Assembly: GCF_000380505.1 (NCBI RefSeq)
Contig: NZ_AQYH01000005.1
Location: 62,001 to 126,000 of the forward strand
Direction of reading: 5' to 3'
DNA from: Kaistia granuli DSM 23481
Lineage (GTDB): Bacteria > Pseudomonadota > Alphaproteobacteria > Rhizobiales > Kaistiaceae
Length of the DNA stretch: 64,000 nucleotides
In this document: in pieces, positions 3,496-15,773 of the stretch
How positions within the stretch are numbered: position 1 is the stretch's first letter
Layout of the letters: each line of letters begins with the position of its first letter
Position numbers and translations under genes: made by a program
The notes under the pieces: generated by a model
Told to the model about the DNA's origin: nothing
Database searches by the model: none
Seen by the model: only the letters and a program-made list of their open reading frames with translations

Positions 3496-4380
<885 letters not shown>

Positions 4381-4419: not shown

Positions 4420-5268
4420 TCAGGCGGCGCGCAGGCGCTTCTCGCGTTGAATGATTTCCGAGGCGAGCCGGAGATAGGCCTGGCTGCCGGTGCTCTTGAA
4501 ATCGTAGAGCAGCACGGGCTTGCCATGCGACGGCGCCTCCGAAATGCGCACATTGCGGGGGATCACCGTGTCGTAGACGGTATCGCCCATATGGGCCCGC
4601 ACATCGGCCACCACCTGGCTGGCCAGATTATTGCGACTATCGAACATCGTCAGCACGATGCCGTGGATCGACAGCTCCGGGTTCAGCGCGTGCTTGACCT
4701 GGTCCACCGTCTGCAACAGCTGGCTCAGACCCTCCAGCGCGAAGAACTCGCACTGCAGCGGCACCAGGATCGAATGCGCCGCCGACAGCGCGTTGATGGT
4801 CAGAAGGTTGAGCGAGGGCGGGCAATCGACCAGCACGTAGCTGTAGTTTCGACCCCGAATCGATTCCGGCCGCTGCATGTGGCTGGCGATCGCCCGGCGC
4901 AGCCGGAAAGCGCGATCGGATCGACTGGCGATTTCCAGCTCGACGCCGAGCAGATCCATTGTCGATGGCGCCACCGACAGCCGCGGTACCGCGGTCTCCA
5001 TGACGATTTCCGACAGCGACGACTCGCCGACCAGGACGTCGTAGGTGGAGCGCAGCCGGCTCTTGCGATCGATGCCGAGACCGGTAGAGGCGTTGCCCTG
5101 CGGGTCGAGGTCGACGATCAGCACTTCCTCGCCGATGGCAGCCAGCGCCGTGCCGAGATTGATCGCCGTCGTGGTCTTGCCGACGCCGCCCTTCTGGTTG
5201 GCCAGCGCGATGACGCGCGGCAGCGGCGGCAACAGCGACGGCGGAGAAAACGTGTCGGCATAAGACAT
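4420..5268 (-). CDS. parA: Chromosome-partitioning ATPase ParA (Soj)
   Basis: Deviant Walker-A ATPase that binds DNA non-specifically as an ATP dimer and pulls ParB-parS complexes away from the pole. The 282-residue protein has the deviant P-loop KGGVGKTTT near residue 26, the switch DLDPQGNASTGLG, and VDCPPSLNLLTINAL as the Walker-B segment. It lacks the N-terminal helix-turn-helix of plasmid type Ia ParA, which fits a chromosomal Soj-type protein. It lies 27 bp after rsmG in a mnmG-rsmG-parA-parB run and about 10 kb from the predicted origin, the usual setting in Alphaproteobacteria. Confidence 0.97.
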   Translation of the reverse strand: MSYADTFSPPSLLPPLPRVIALANQKGGVGKTTTAINLGTALAAIGEEVLIVDLDPQGNASTGLGIDRKSRLRSTYDVLVGESSLSEIVMETAVPRLSVAPSTMDLLGVELEIASRSDRAFRLRRAIASHMQRPESIRGRNYSYVLVDCPPSLNLLTINALSAAHSILVPLQCEFFALEGLSQLLQTVDQVKHALNPELSIHGIVLTMFDSRNNLASQVVADVRAHMGDTVYDTVIPRNVRISEAPSHGKPVLLYDFKSTGSQAYLRLASEIIQREKRLRAA

Positions 5269-5295: not shown

Positions 5296-5931
5296 TCAGA
5301 CGGACCGGCGCTCTGCGCGGCAGATTTCGACGATCGAGCTACGCTCGTCGATCATGCTCTTGTGTCTTACCAGATCGAGGGTCCAAGATTTAGAGGCTTC
5401 GGCCAGTTCCCCCTCGAAATCTTCACCTTTGTGAAAGGTTCCTATGCTTCCGGTCGCCAGAACCGGCGCCGAGAGCTCCAGCAGGTCCGAGAGCGAGGCC
5501 AGCGCGCGAGCACTGATGCGCTCGACTGGGTGCTGCCATTGTTTCAGGACCGATTCGATCCGCCCTTCATGCACCACGGCCGCCGCGCCCGTCTCGCGAA
5601 TCACCGTGCGCAGGAAGGCGCATTTGCGCTGATTGGCCTCGACGCAATGGACGACAGCCCCGTCCTGGCCGGTCAAAAGGATGGCGGTGATCATGCCGGG
5701 AAGGCCGGCGCCGCTGCCGAGATCGAGCCAGCGCCTCGTATCCGGGAACATCGCCACCAGCTGCGCGCAGTCGGCGACATGGCGGACCCAGATCTGGCCG
5801 AGCGTATTCGGCGAGACGAGGTTCTGCGCCGGTTGCCACTTGCGCAGCAGCGCGACATAGCGCTCCAGCCGCTCGCGTGTTTCACGTGAAACGGGAAGGA
5901 CGGCCTCGACCGCCGCGATCGTATCGGTCAT
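5296..5931 (-). CDS. rsmG: 16S rRNA (guanine-527-N7)-methyltransferase RsmG
   Basis: S-adenosylmethionine-dependent methyltransferase that forms m7G527 in 16S rRNA, a site linked to aminoglycoside sensitivity. The 211-residue protein has the SAM-binding motif [14 protein letters not shown] and the GidB-type [14 protein letters not shown] segment. The ATG overlaps the mnmG stop by 4 bp (ATGA), indicating translational coupling. Codons near the start (VSRETRE) are written by a parS-like sequence at 5878-5893, so this coding stretch probably also serves as a ParB-binding site. Confidence 0.95.
5878..5893. promoter_or_regulatory. parS: parS centromere-like site inside rsmG
   Basis: The 16-mer TGTTTCACGTGAAACG matches the bacterial parS consensus TGTTTCACGTGAAACA at 15 of 16 positions. 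It lies within the first codons of rsmG, a place where parS is often found, about 0.6 kb upstream of parA. It should nucleate ParB loading. Confidence 0.88.
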
Positions 5932-7877: not shown

Positions 7878-7893
7878 TGTTTCACGTGGAACA
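7878..7893. promoter_or_regulatory. parS: Second parS-like site, between mnmE and mnmG
   Basis: TGTTTCACGTGGAACA matches the parS consensus at 15 of 16 positions; the one difference breaks the palindrome. It lies in the mnmE-mnmG gap, exactly 2,000 bp from the site in rsmG. Two sites near parAB and the origin are normal for Alphaproteobacteria. Confidence 0.85.
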
Positions 7894-13450: not shown

Positions 13451-14563
13451 CTAGCCGCGGATCCGGGCGATCAACTGCTCGACATGCGCGATCGGCGTCT
13501 GCGGCACGATCCCGTGTCCGAGGTTAAAAATCAGCCTTGCCCCGCGCATGGACTCGAGGATTTCATCAATCGCCGTGTCGAGTTCGGCGCCGCCGGCCAC
13601 CAGAACCATCGGGTCGAGATTGCCCTGGATCGCCACGCGACCGGCGATTTCGTCGCGAACGGTCTTGAGCGGCACGGTCCAGTCGACGCCGACGGCGTTG
13701 ACGCCTGTCGTCTCGACAAACGAGAGCAGCCCGCGATCCGCGCCCTTCGGGAAGCCGATGAACCGGGCATCCGGGATTTCGGCGCGAACGCCGGCAATGA
13801 TCCGGGCGATCGGCCCGGCCGACCACCGTTCGAACGCCTTCGGCGACAAAACGCGCGACCAGCTGTCGAAAATCTGCACGGCATCGGCACCGGCGCGCAA
13901 TTGCGCGATCAGATAGATGATCGAAGCCCGGACCAGAACGTCGATCAGGCGATCGAGCGCCTCGGGATCGCGCGCCGCCATCAGACGGGAGGGCGCCTGA
14001 TCCGGAGTCCCCTTGCCGGCGATCATGTAGGTCGCAACGGTCCAGGGAGCCCCGCAAAAGCCGATCAAGGCCTTGTCCGGCGCCAGCTCGCGGCGGACTG
14101 CCGCCACCGTCTCCAGCACGGGCGCCAGCCTGTCGAGGACGGCATCGATCGAGAGCTGGGCAATTTCGGCCGGATCGATCGGATCGAGACGAGGTCCCTC
14201 GCCTTCGACGAAGCGGACATCGCGGCCGAGCGCATGCGGAATGACGAGAATATCGGAAAACAGGATGGCGGCATCGAAGCCGAAGCGGCGGATCGGCTGC
14301 AGCGTCACTTCCGTGGCCAGCTCGGGCGTGTAGCAGAGATCGAGGAAGGATCCAGCCTGGGTCCTGAGCGCCCGATATTCGGGAAGATAACGCCCTGCCT
14401 GGCGCATCAGCCAGATTGGCGGCTCGGCGAGAACCTCGCCATCGAGGACGCGCAGCAAGCGCGCTTTCGTCTTCAAAGCCGTCGGAACGTTCTGCACCAC
14501 CACCACCAAAGAAAGAGATCTATCTGTAGTTTCTTCTTCTTCTTGACGGTGGATTACCGTCAT
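13451..14563 (-). CDS. hemE: Uroporphyrinogen decarboxylase
   Basis: Decarboxylates the four acetate side chains of uroporphyrinogen III to coproporphyrinogen III. The family signature [17 protein letters not shown] and the later [14 protein letters not shown] segment are present. The ATG at 14563 gives 370 residues, about 20 more than usual. The extra N-terminus is low-complexity (four Glu and four Val in runs). A start at one of four consecutive GTG codons at 14495-14506, giving about 348 residues, would fit the family better. No clear ribosome-binding site decides between them. Its 5' end borders the predicted replication origin, as in Caulobacter. Confidence 0.94.
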
Positions 14564-14569
14564 TCAGCG

Positions 14570-14578
14570 CTATCCACA
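14570..14578 (+). promoter_or_regulatory. DnaA-box-like 9-mer, left edge of origin
   Basis: CTATCCACA matches the DnaA consensus TTATCCACA at 8 of 9 positions. It lies 7 bases upstream of the hemE ATG, so DnaA bound here could also affect hemE expression. Confidence 0.6.
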
Positions 14579-14726
14579 ATGCGACCGAGACGCCGCCGGA
14601 TAACTCGCCCGATTCATCCCGCGGTTGAGGATGGCTGGGGAAAATCGCTGTTTGTTTCGTTCTATCTATTTGTTTCAGCTTGCATTTTACCGGGTACTTC
14701 CAATTCGAACGATCCGGATCTGGCTG

Positions 14727-14741
14727 TTAATATCCCGTTAA
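14727..14741. promoter_or_regulatory. CtrA-type binding site 1
   Basis: TTAA, seven bases (TATCCCG), TTAA: a perfect match to the full CtrA recognition sequence TTAA-N7-TTAA. It lies in the centre of the predicted origin, 8 bases before a second perfect site. Confidence 0.75.
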
Positions 14742-14749
14742 GGTGTTGG

Positions 14750-14764
14750 TTAATAAATCGTTAA
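14750..14764. promoter_or_regulatory. CtrA-type binding site 2
   Basis: TTAA, seven bases (TAAATCG), TTAA: a second perfect CtrA-type site. The centres of the two sites are 23 bp apart, about two helical turns, which would put bound CtrA dimers on the same face of DNA. Confidence 0.75.
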
Positions 14765-14794
14765 TTCCCGTTGCTCTCGACAGGCCCGGATTCA

Positions 14795-14844
14795 TTGTCC
14801 CCAGGACCAGCCGCTGTTGATCATTTTTGGCTGATCGGGGACAA
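14795..14844. repeat. Interrupted inverted repeat in the origin region
   Basis: TTGTCCCC (14795-14802) pairs with GGGGACAA (14837-14844), and CAGCC (14808-14812) with GGCTG (14829-14833), with small unequal bulges between. The loop contains the palindrome TGATCA followed by a T-run. It sits between the CtrA sites and the ppsR start. It could be part of the origin, a leader-RNA hairpin for ppsR, or a regulator site. Confidence 0.5.
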
Positions 14845-14883
14845 GTCGGTCAACGGACGCCGCGAGGCCGACTTATCCCGTCC

Positions 14884-14892
14884 GTATCCACA
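14884..14892 (+). promoter_or_regulatory. DnaA-box-like 9-mer, right edge of origin
   Basis: GTATCCACA matches TTATCCACA at 8 of 9 positions. It lies 17 bases before the ppsR start codon, in the same orientation as the left-edge box. Confidence 0.6.
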
Positions 14893-14909
14893 GCCCTGGG
14901 GATGACAGT

Positions 14910-15773
14910 GTGAAGAACGAGCTCCGGCACCTGCATTTGCATCTGATTTCGGATGCGACGGGCGAGACGTTGCTGACGGTCGGCAGGGCCGCTTCGGCGC
15001 AGTATCCCGGCGTTTCGGTGATCGAACACATGCATTCCATGGTGCGTGCGCCGAAGCAGATCGACCACCTGCTCGTCGAGATCGAGCAGGAACCGGGCAT
15101 CGTTCTCTACACGCTGGTCGACCGGGTGATGGCGGCGATGCTCGAACAGGGTTGCCGGAACATCGGCGTGCCCTGTTTCTCGGTGCTCGATCCGGTGCTG
15201 CAAGTATTCCAGTCCTACCTCGGCGCCTCGAGCCAGGGCCGGGTCGGCGCGCAGCATTCGCTGGACGGCGACTATTTCCGCCGCATCGAGGCCCTCACCT
15301 TCACGATGATGCATGATGATGGCCAGCTGCCGGAGGATCTCGACCTGGCCGAGATCGTCATCATTGGTGTCAGCCGGACATCGAAGACGCCAACCAGCAT
15401 CTATCTGGCCAATCGCGGTGTTCGCACCGCCAATATCCCGATCGTGCCGGGGATCGGCCTGCCACTCGAACTTGAGGCGGTGACCAAGCCGTTGATCGTC
15501 GCCCTCGTCGCAACGCCGGACCGCATCGTACAGATGCGCGAGAACCGGGTGTTGTCGAACGCAACATTCGGCGAGGACGATCCCTATGTCGACCGCGCCG
15601 CCGTCGCCAACGAGATCGCGGCGACGCGCAAGATCTGTGCGCGCAAGGGTTGGCCCGTGATCGACGTGACGCGCCGTTCGATCGAGGAAACCGCCGCCGC
15701 CATCCTGGCGCTTCGCAACAAGCAGGCGGGAAGCGTCAAGGATGCTTCTTCCCGGGATGGTTTCCTCGCATGA
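14910..15773 (+). CDS. ppsR: Pyruvate, water dikinase regulatory protein (DUF299 kinase/pyrophosphorylase)
   Basis: ADP-dependent kinase and phosphate-dependent pyrophosphorylase of the DUF299 family. Characterised members switch PEP synthase or pyruvate phosphate dikinase off and on by threonine phosphorylation. The 287 residues begin [15 protein letters not shown] and carry the nucleotide-binding motif [18 protein letters not shown]. The start is GTG. This is the gene called RP001 in early descriptions of the Caulobacter and Rickettsia origins. Its stop overlaps the maf start by 4 bp, and it begins a maf-aroE-coaE-dnaQ unit. No PEP synthase gene is visible nearby, so the target is unknown. 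Confidence 0.93.

Follow-up and report, generated by a model that had tools for sequence, protein, structure and literature searches.

We propose that the interval from about 14498 to 14909 of the window, the 64,000-nucleotide stretch analysed here (bases 62001–126000 of the 396,348-base contig C5), is very likely the chromosomal replication origin of this bacterium, and that it is of the hemE|ppsR type known from Caulobacter. The window comes from a draft genome (G000) of 4.77 Mb, assembled into 20 contigs. The proposal draws on a skew turn that lies in the gap between the two genes on the organism's own contig and near that gap in a complete genome of the same genus (G011), on the adjoining par cluster, on the local density of DnaA-type boxes, on a close pair of predicted CtrA sites and on synteny, all of which agree with the original prediction that had placed an origin between hemE and ppsR.

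Location and boundaries of the proposed origin

The expected gap of 346 bp is present, with hemE on the minus strand and the DUF299 gene ppsR pointing away from it on the plus strand (Table 1). The genome encodes one dnaA-family gene (PF00308) and, by profile search, a ctrA gene (NF045991, 423.5 bits against a cut-off of 350).

Table 1. Features in and around the proposed origin (window coordinates)
Feature	Position	Strand	Details
parB	3496..4380	-	TIGR00180, 193 bits (cut-off 58)
parA	4420..5268	-	ParA-type matches, all below curated cut-offs; adjoins parB
parS-like site	5878..5893	+	1 mismatch
parS-like site	7878..7893	+	1 mismatch
hemE as called (uroporphyrinogen decarboxylase)	13451..14563	-	TIGR01464, 400 bits (cut-off 303)
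Candidate DNA unwinding element	14508..14557		Least stable 50-mer of 14401-15000; nearest-neighbour sum -59.9 kcal/mol
DnaA-trio-like tract, AAG AAG AAG AAG AAA	14530..14544	-	Register conserved in relatives; 3-base spacer at 14545-14547
DnaA box a, TAATCCACC	14548..14556	-	7 of 9; weaker box, just left of 14564
DnaA box b, CTATCCACA	14570..14578	+	8 of 9
W-box-like TCCCCA	14636..14641	-	
CtrA site 1 (predicted), TTAATATCCCGTTAA	14727..14741	+	Perfect TTAA-N7-TTAA; perfect in 7/14 genus rows
CtrA site 2 (predicted), TTAATAAATCGTTAA	14750..14764	+	Perfect TTAA-N7-TTAA; perfect in 6/14 genus rows
W-box-like TCCCCA	14798..14803	+	Kept at the same place in 14/14 genus rows
DnaA-like box c, TGATCAACA	14815..14823	-	Matches the Caulobacter G-box TGATCCACA at 8 of 9 bases
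DnaA box d, GTATCCACA	14884..14892	+	8 of 9
W-box-like TCCCCA	14897..14902	-	
ppsR (PEP synthase/PPDK regulator, DUF299)	14910..15773	+	NF003742, 320 bits (cut-off 225)

The left edge of the gap as annotated is doubtful, since the TIGR01464 match to the called HemE protein begins only at residue 36 and the called start is not conserved in the genus: among the 14 rows of the genus comparison the ATG at 14563 is in frame and open in six, four of which carry an ATG at the equivalent of HemE residue 21, and is out of frame or stopped in the other eight. The sequences suggest that this ATG is probably not the true start, that the gene was called about 54–66 bases too far upstream, and that translation probably begins at a TTG or GTG codon at 14509–14497, in which case positions 14510–14563 would be origin DNA and not hemE coding sequence. 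The origin had been predicted at 14564–14909; the place stands, but the extent does not, as the candidate unwinding element falls to the left of that interval, and the origin is very probably broader, extending from about 14498 to 14909.

On contig C5 the running (G+T)-(A+C) sum is lowest within the gap, at C5:76620 (window 14620), and the T-A and G-C sums have their minima at window positions 14518 and 16761 respectively; these values describe contig C5 alone, one part of a draft assembly. In G011, 20 samples of 20 kb gave negative skew in 9 of 11 to the left of the gap and positive skew in 8 of 9 to its right, and the best two-state fits turn at 4.70–4.94 Mb, the gap lying at 4.76 Mb. Over 400 kb of tiles from the same genome, the distance of the minimum from the gap is 1.2 kb for the combined measure, 2.6 kb for G-C and 193 kb for T-A, so that two of three measures place the turn at the gap. 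A second complete genome of the genus, G005, shows no skew turn at its gap (left negative in 10 of 14 samples, right positive in only 6 of 15), an outcome that nine further samples did not change, and no skew minimum occurs at the gap in 400 kb of tiles. Its skew is weak, and the best two-state fit (1.98–2.30 Mb) is 0.5–0.8 Mb from the gap at 2.80 Mb. This offset may reflect a rearrangement, possibly an inversion, or else a displaced origin in that genome. The terminus lends no support, since a search of G000, G005 and G011 with an E. coli-type dif consensus, allowing up to three mismatches, gave no match.

A par cluster adjoins the gap in all three of these genomes. It had been predicted that parAB and parS would lie within 10 kb of the origin, which is correct for the parS-like sites (6.7–8.7 kb), while parA (9.3–10.1 kb) reaches slightly past that distance and parB (10.2–11.1 kb) lies just beyond it. 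The two parS-like sites in Table 1, both near parAB, are the only ones in the genome at no more than one mismatch, and a third site with two mismatches is present on the contig.

Conservation of the hemE|ppsR junction in other Alphaproteobacteria, also predicted, was confirmed in a survey of the order Hyphomicrobiales, in which the two genes are adjacent and divergent at 165 of 179 loci, and in other orders, where the same holds for 38 of 40 loci (40 of 97 genomes with ppsR). The 179 loci were collected in sets of 30, 18, 51 and 80 (one of the last titled only Alphaproteobacteria); beyond the first set, 69 of 250 ppsR-bearing genomes of the order were covered, 51 of them in a non-random choice of about one per genus. 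Eleven of the excluded loci had no hemE match (two on cut contigs, seven titled Bradyrhizobium and two others) and three had no ppsR match, only about 100 bp of ppsR having been retrieved in these. The 165 gaps, four of them identical to another, were reduced to 140 by shared 12-mers. All seven Bradyrhizobium loci (L239, L241, L256, L264, L284, L290 and L291) lack a hemE match in the 2 kb flank beside ppsR, where the junction seems to be broken or stretched. A ppsR match is absent from 47 of 297 genomes of the order, at least three of them of the same family; the gene may have been lost, have diverged, or be missing from the draft.

An alternative explanation is that the gap is simply a busy divergent promoter, in which CtrA and DnaA sites regulate the transcription of hemE and ppsR while replication starts elsewhere. 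CtrA and DnaA are both reported to double as transcription factors (PMC4468827), and G005, where the skew turns far from the gap, would fit such a reading. Against this stand the turn inside the gap on contig C5 and close to the gap in G011, the par cluster beside the gap in three genomes, the DnaA cores found on both sides of the gap across the order (see below), and the description of the same hemE/COG1806 junction as the mapped Caulobacter origin (PMC1914354), and we consider the promoter-only explanation very improbable.

DnaA boxes and the hemE-side tract

The two 8-of-9 DnaA boxes expected at the edges of the gap, CTATCCACA and GTATCCACA, are the only two in the window. That number is not above chance (2 observed, 2.66 expected in 64 kb), and DnaA boxes alone were therefore rejected as evidence for an origin. 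On the whole 396 kb contig there are seven such boxes, two of them in the gap, and no other 400-bp place holds two. The gap is also the densest 400-bp place for TCCACA and TCCCCA combined (five sites, against four at the next unrelated place), a comparison made on contig C5 only, 396 kb of the 4.77 Mb. Two weaker boxes had been predicted as well; both exist, but one of them, box a, falls just outside the interval in which they had been placed. Perfect DnaA boxes are absent from the gap, the three in the genome lying elsewhere. In the genome as a whole the perfect box TTATCCACA looks avoided, with three occurrences in 4.77 Mb compared to 18 for the backward-read pattern.

Several of these elements recur in relatives. 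Within box b, TCCACAAT is invariant across the 14 genus rows, while its first three bases vary. Among the 140 dereplicated gaps of the order, the box a form GTGGATTA occurs in 35 (0.4 in shuffles), TGTTGA or TGTGGA is found 75–115 bp before ppsR in 89 (shuffles mean 1.8, at most 7), and TCCACA is present somewhere in the gap in 119 (14 in shuffles); in 64 gaps it lies no more than 60 bp from ppsR, a raw count with no shuffle control.

The predicted AT-rich core is present but modest, the richest 50-bp windows having 56–64% AT compared to 31–34% for the contig. Only 0.057% of 50-mers on the contig are as weak as the candidate unwinding element or weaker, and box a lies within this element. Reading along the minus strand, box a (14556–14548) is followed by GTC and then by AAG AAG AAG AAG AAA, a box followed by A at every third base, as in the pattern of the published DnaA-trio search, which is described as asking for three or more NAN triplets, their central base being A, no further than 16 bp from a box that has up to two mismatches (PMC8287927). 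Here box a has two mismatches, the spacer is three bases and there are five NAN triplets. Canonical 3'-GAT-5' triplets were not found in this tract, which consists of AAG and AAA, the triplets of relatives being mostly [A/C/T]A[A/G]; in the published search, any NAN triplet is accepted. The register was taken from the relatives, since a second one, CAA GAA GAA GAA GAA, is also open in the organism's own tract.

We examined this periodicity in the 40 of 140 dereplicated gaps that carry GTGGAT[TA] near hemE, comparing A at positions 6, 9, 12, 15 and 18 after the eighth base of the box with the other positions between 5 and 19, by permutation within rows. A occupies 87% of the former and 52% of the latter, a difference that none of 2000 permutations reached. 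The result is similar when the genus is left out (34 rows, 85% and 51%) and when a relaxed box is used in 27 of the remaining 100 gaps (71% and 42%), again with 0/2000 permutations in each case. Coding for HemE was rejected as the cause, as the frame of the tract relative to HemE is mixed (21/11/8 among the 40 rows) and the 26 rows in which the tract cannot encode HemE are periodic on their own (85% and 54%, 0/2000 permutations). At the same fixed register, ten gaps of other orders gave a negative result (622 of 2000 permutations). Inspected by eye, some origins of other orders (L338, L339, L354 and L359) have NAC triplets in another register and further from the TCCAC box, which are perhaps trios following a second weak box.

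By analogy with Caulobacter (PMC4468827, PMC4285127) and Bacillus (PMC8287927, PMC6669920), from which binding, opening and repression are all inferred here, DnaA would gather on weak boxes in two groups, one on the hemE side (a and b) and one on the ppsR side (c and d), aided by the TCCCCA half-sites, and would then extend from box a onto the trio-like tract, the weakest duplex, and open it. Trio-type opening by DnaA at the hemE side is, in our view, quite probable. The tract could instead be a plain AT-rich unwinding element or a hemE leader, as its own AAG triplets with their two open registers, the negative outcome for other orders when the register is kept, and the 14 of 40 tracts in which HemE coding is possible might suggest. 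We think this unlikely, although a real contender, given that the three-base recurrence of A, set at a constant distance from the box, is seen in 40 dissimilar gaps and 27 relaxed-box rows, and that the 26 rows whose tract cannot encode HemE show it too.

CtrA sites in the gap and across Hyphomicrobiales

CtrA sites had been predicted in the gap, and it contains two perfect ones, compared to none in 100 shuffles. A single such site is not rare, since the genome has 13 perfect sites and 8 matches to the backward-read pattern; a close pair is rare, and this is the only one in the genome. Elsewhere in the genome, one 15-mer CtrA-type site, TTAACGAGTGGTTAA, is present twice (G000:C2:83428–83442 and G000:C8:256560–256574). 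Within the genus, nine of the 14 gaps have a perfect site and five have none.

Across the order, TTAA-N7-TTAA is present in 54 of the 140 dereplicated gaps (46 of 128 outside the genus), compared to 0–8 for spacers of 2–6 and 8–14 bases and to a mean of 0.69 (at most 3) in shuffles. The full set of 165 gaps holds 64 sites in 75 kb, against 2 in 525 kb of flanks, a weaker control than the spacer scan and shuffles since the flanks are mostly coding. AT-richness by chance was rejected as the source of the sites on these three grounds. In other orders a site is present in 5 of 38 gaps (0.24 in shuffles).

The distribution is uneven among families. Counted before dereplication, sites were found in 0/10 Rhizobiaceae, 1/28 Phyllobacteriaceae, 0/4 Xanthobacteraceae, 1/3 Methylobacteriaceae, 1/2 Stappiaceae, 1/2 Afifellaceae, 0/2 Nitrobacteraceae, 1/1 Alsobacteraceae, 0/1 Hyphomicrobiaceae, 0/1 Pleomorphomonadaceae and 5/18 loci with no family given. 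When the 201 rows, of which 63 have a site, are placed on a quick HemE tree, the trait requires 32 changes, whereas 100 shuffles of the labels required 53.8 on average and never fewer than 47. This indicates, as far as a tree of this kind can tell, that the trait is passed down within clades and yet is often changed.

If these sites act as in Caulobacter, phosphorylated CtrA on the two central sites would block or delay initiation, and we lean towards control of this kind, by repression, at the present origin. It is also conceivable that the origin is real and its CtrA sites serve transcription of hemE or ppsR, not replication. The patchiness of the sites (54/140) and the 15 of 64 that lie towards one gap edge (3 nearer ppsR, 12 further) are compatible with such a role, as is the report that weakening all five Cori CtrA sites perturbed the Caulobacter cycle only mildly in laboratory culture (PMC4468827). 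The other 49 sites lie mid-gap, 150–319 bp before ppsR and between the groups of DnaA boxes, and CtrA is described as inhibiting DnaA binding at Caulobacter Cori (PMC4285127), so that a purely transcriptional role appears doubtful to us, with direct control of replication preferred.

Relation to known origins and wider significance

Judged by its sequence, the proposed origin is of an already known, Caulobacter-type kind. According to published descriptions, Caulobacter crescentus Cori lies at the same junction and likewise has weak DnaA boxes, W-box-like TCCCCA half-sites and TTAA-N7-TTAA sites (PMC1914354, PMC4285127, PMC4468827). Cori has five CtrA sites, however, compared to two here, and G-boxes TGATCCACA in place of the 8-of-9 boxes CTATCCACA and GTATCCACA, the present origin having in addition one TGATCAACA, a single base off the G-box. 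For IHF, 28 rows contained no exact match to the pattern WATCAA-N4-TTR; the account in PMC1914354 used a looser form.

Sinorhizobium meliloti and Brucella abortus are likewise rhizobial alphaproteobacteria with CtrA, but their origins are reported not to be bound by it (PMC4433202 and PMC2877005, respectively), in contrast to the perfect predicted sites found here. Origins of Rickettsiales (Rickettsia, Wolbachia, Ehrlichia and Anaplasma) have been predicted at hemE, most of them with CtrA sites (PMC1914354), although these belong to another order with AT-rich genomes and partly other neighbour genes. A CtrA ChIP peak is described as adjoining the origin in Hyphomonas neptunium (PMC7200025), a likeness at the level of description. 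The hemE-side module resembles the basal origin unwinding system (BUS) of Bacillus subtilis (DnaA-box, spacer and DnaA-trios; PMC8287927) in having a box with three or more NAN triplets no further than 16 bp away and A at every third base, and differs from it in its AAG triplets and three-base spacer.

A 2015 review reports no CtrA sites at origins outside Caulobacter and possibly Rickettsia. Origin finders are described as already labelling CtrA sites and trios (PMC10225481), and the survey of DnaA-trios is stated to have spanned 2070 species (PMC8287927), and single cases may thus already be present in supplements or databases. Our search of titles and the beginnings of abstracts, with few subscription journals among them, returned no report of CtrA sites across Hyphomicrobiales origins or of a hemE-side trio module.

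For a genus that has received little study, the analysis locates the very probable origin, revises its boundary and points to a site where opening probably occurs. We lean slightly towards the wider view that CtrA controls the origin directly in much of Hyphomicrobiales, a trait repeatedly lost or gained, with the studied model rhizobia being the exceptions, and that opening takes place at a conserved hemE-side DnaA box and DnaA-trio module lying partly inside the annotated start of hemE. The three-base register would allow a sharp test of DnaA-trio function, none being reported for the group in the literature covered. It also becomes a testable question whether CtrA control of initiation, missing in Sinorhizobium and Brucella, may be common in the order and absent only in some of its lineages.
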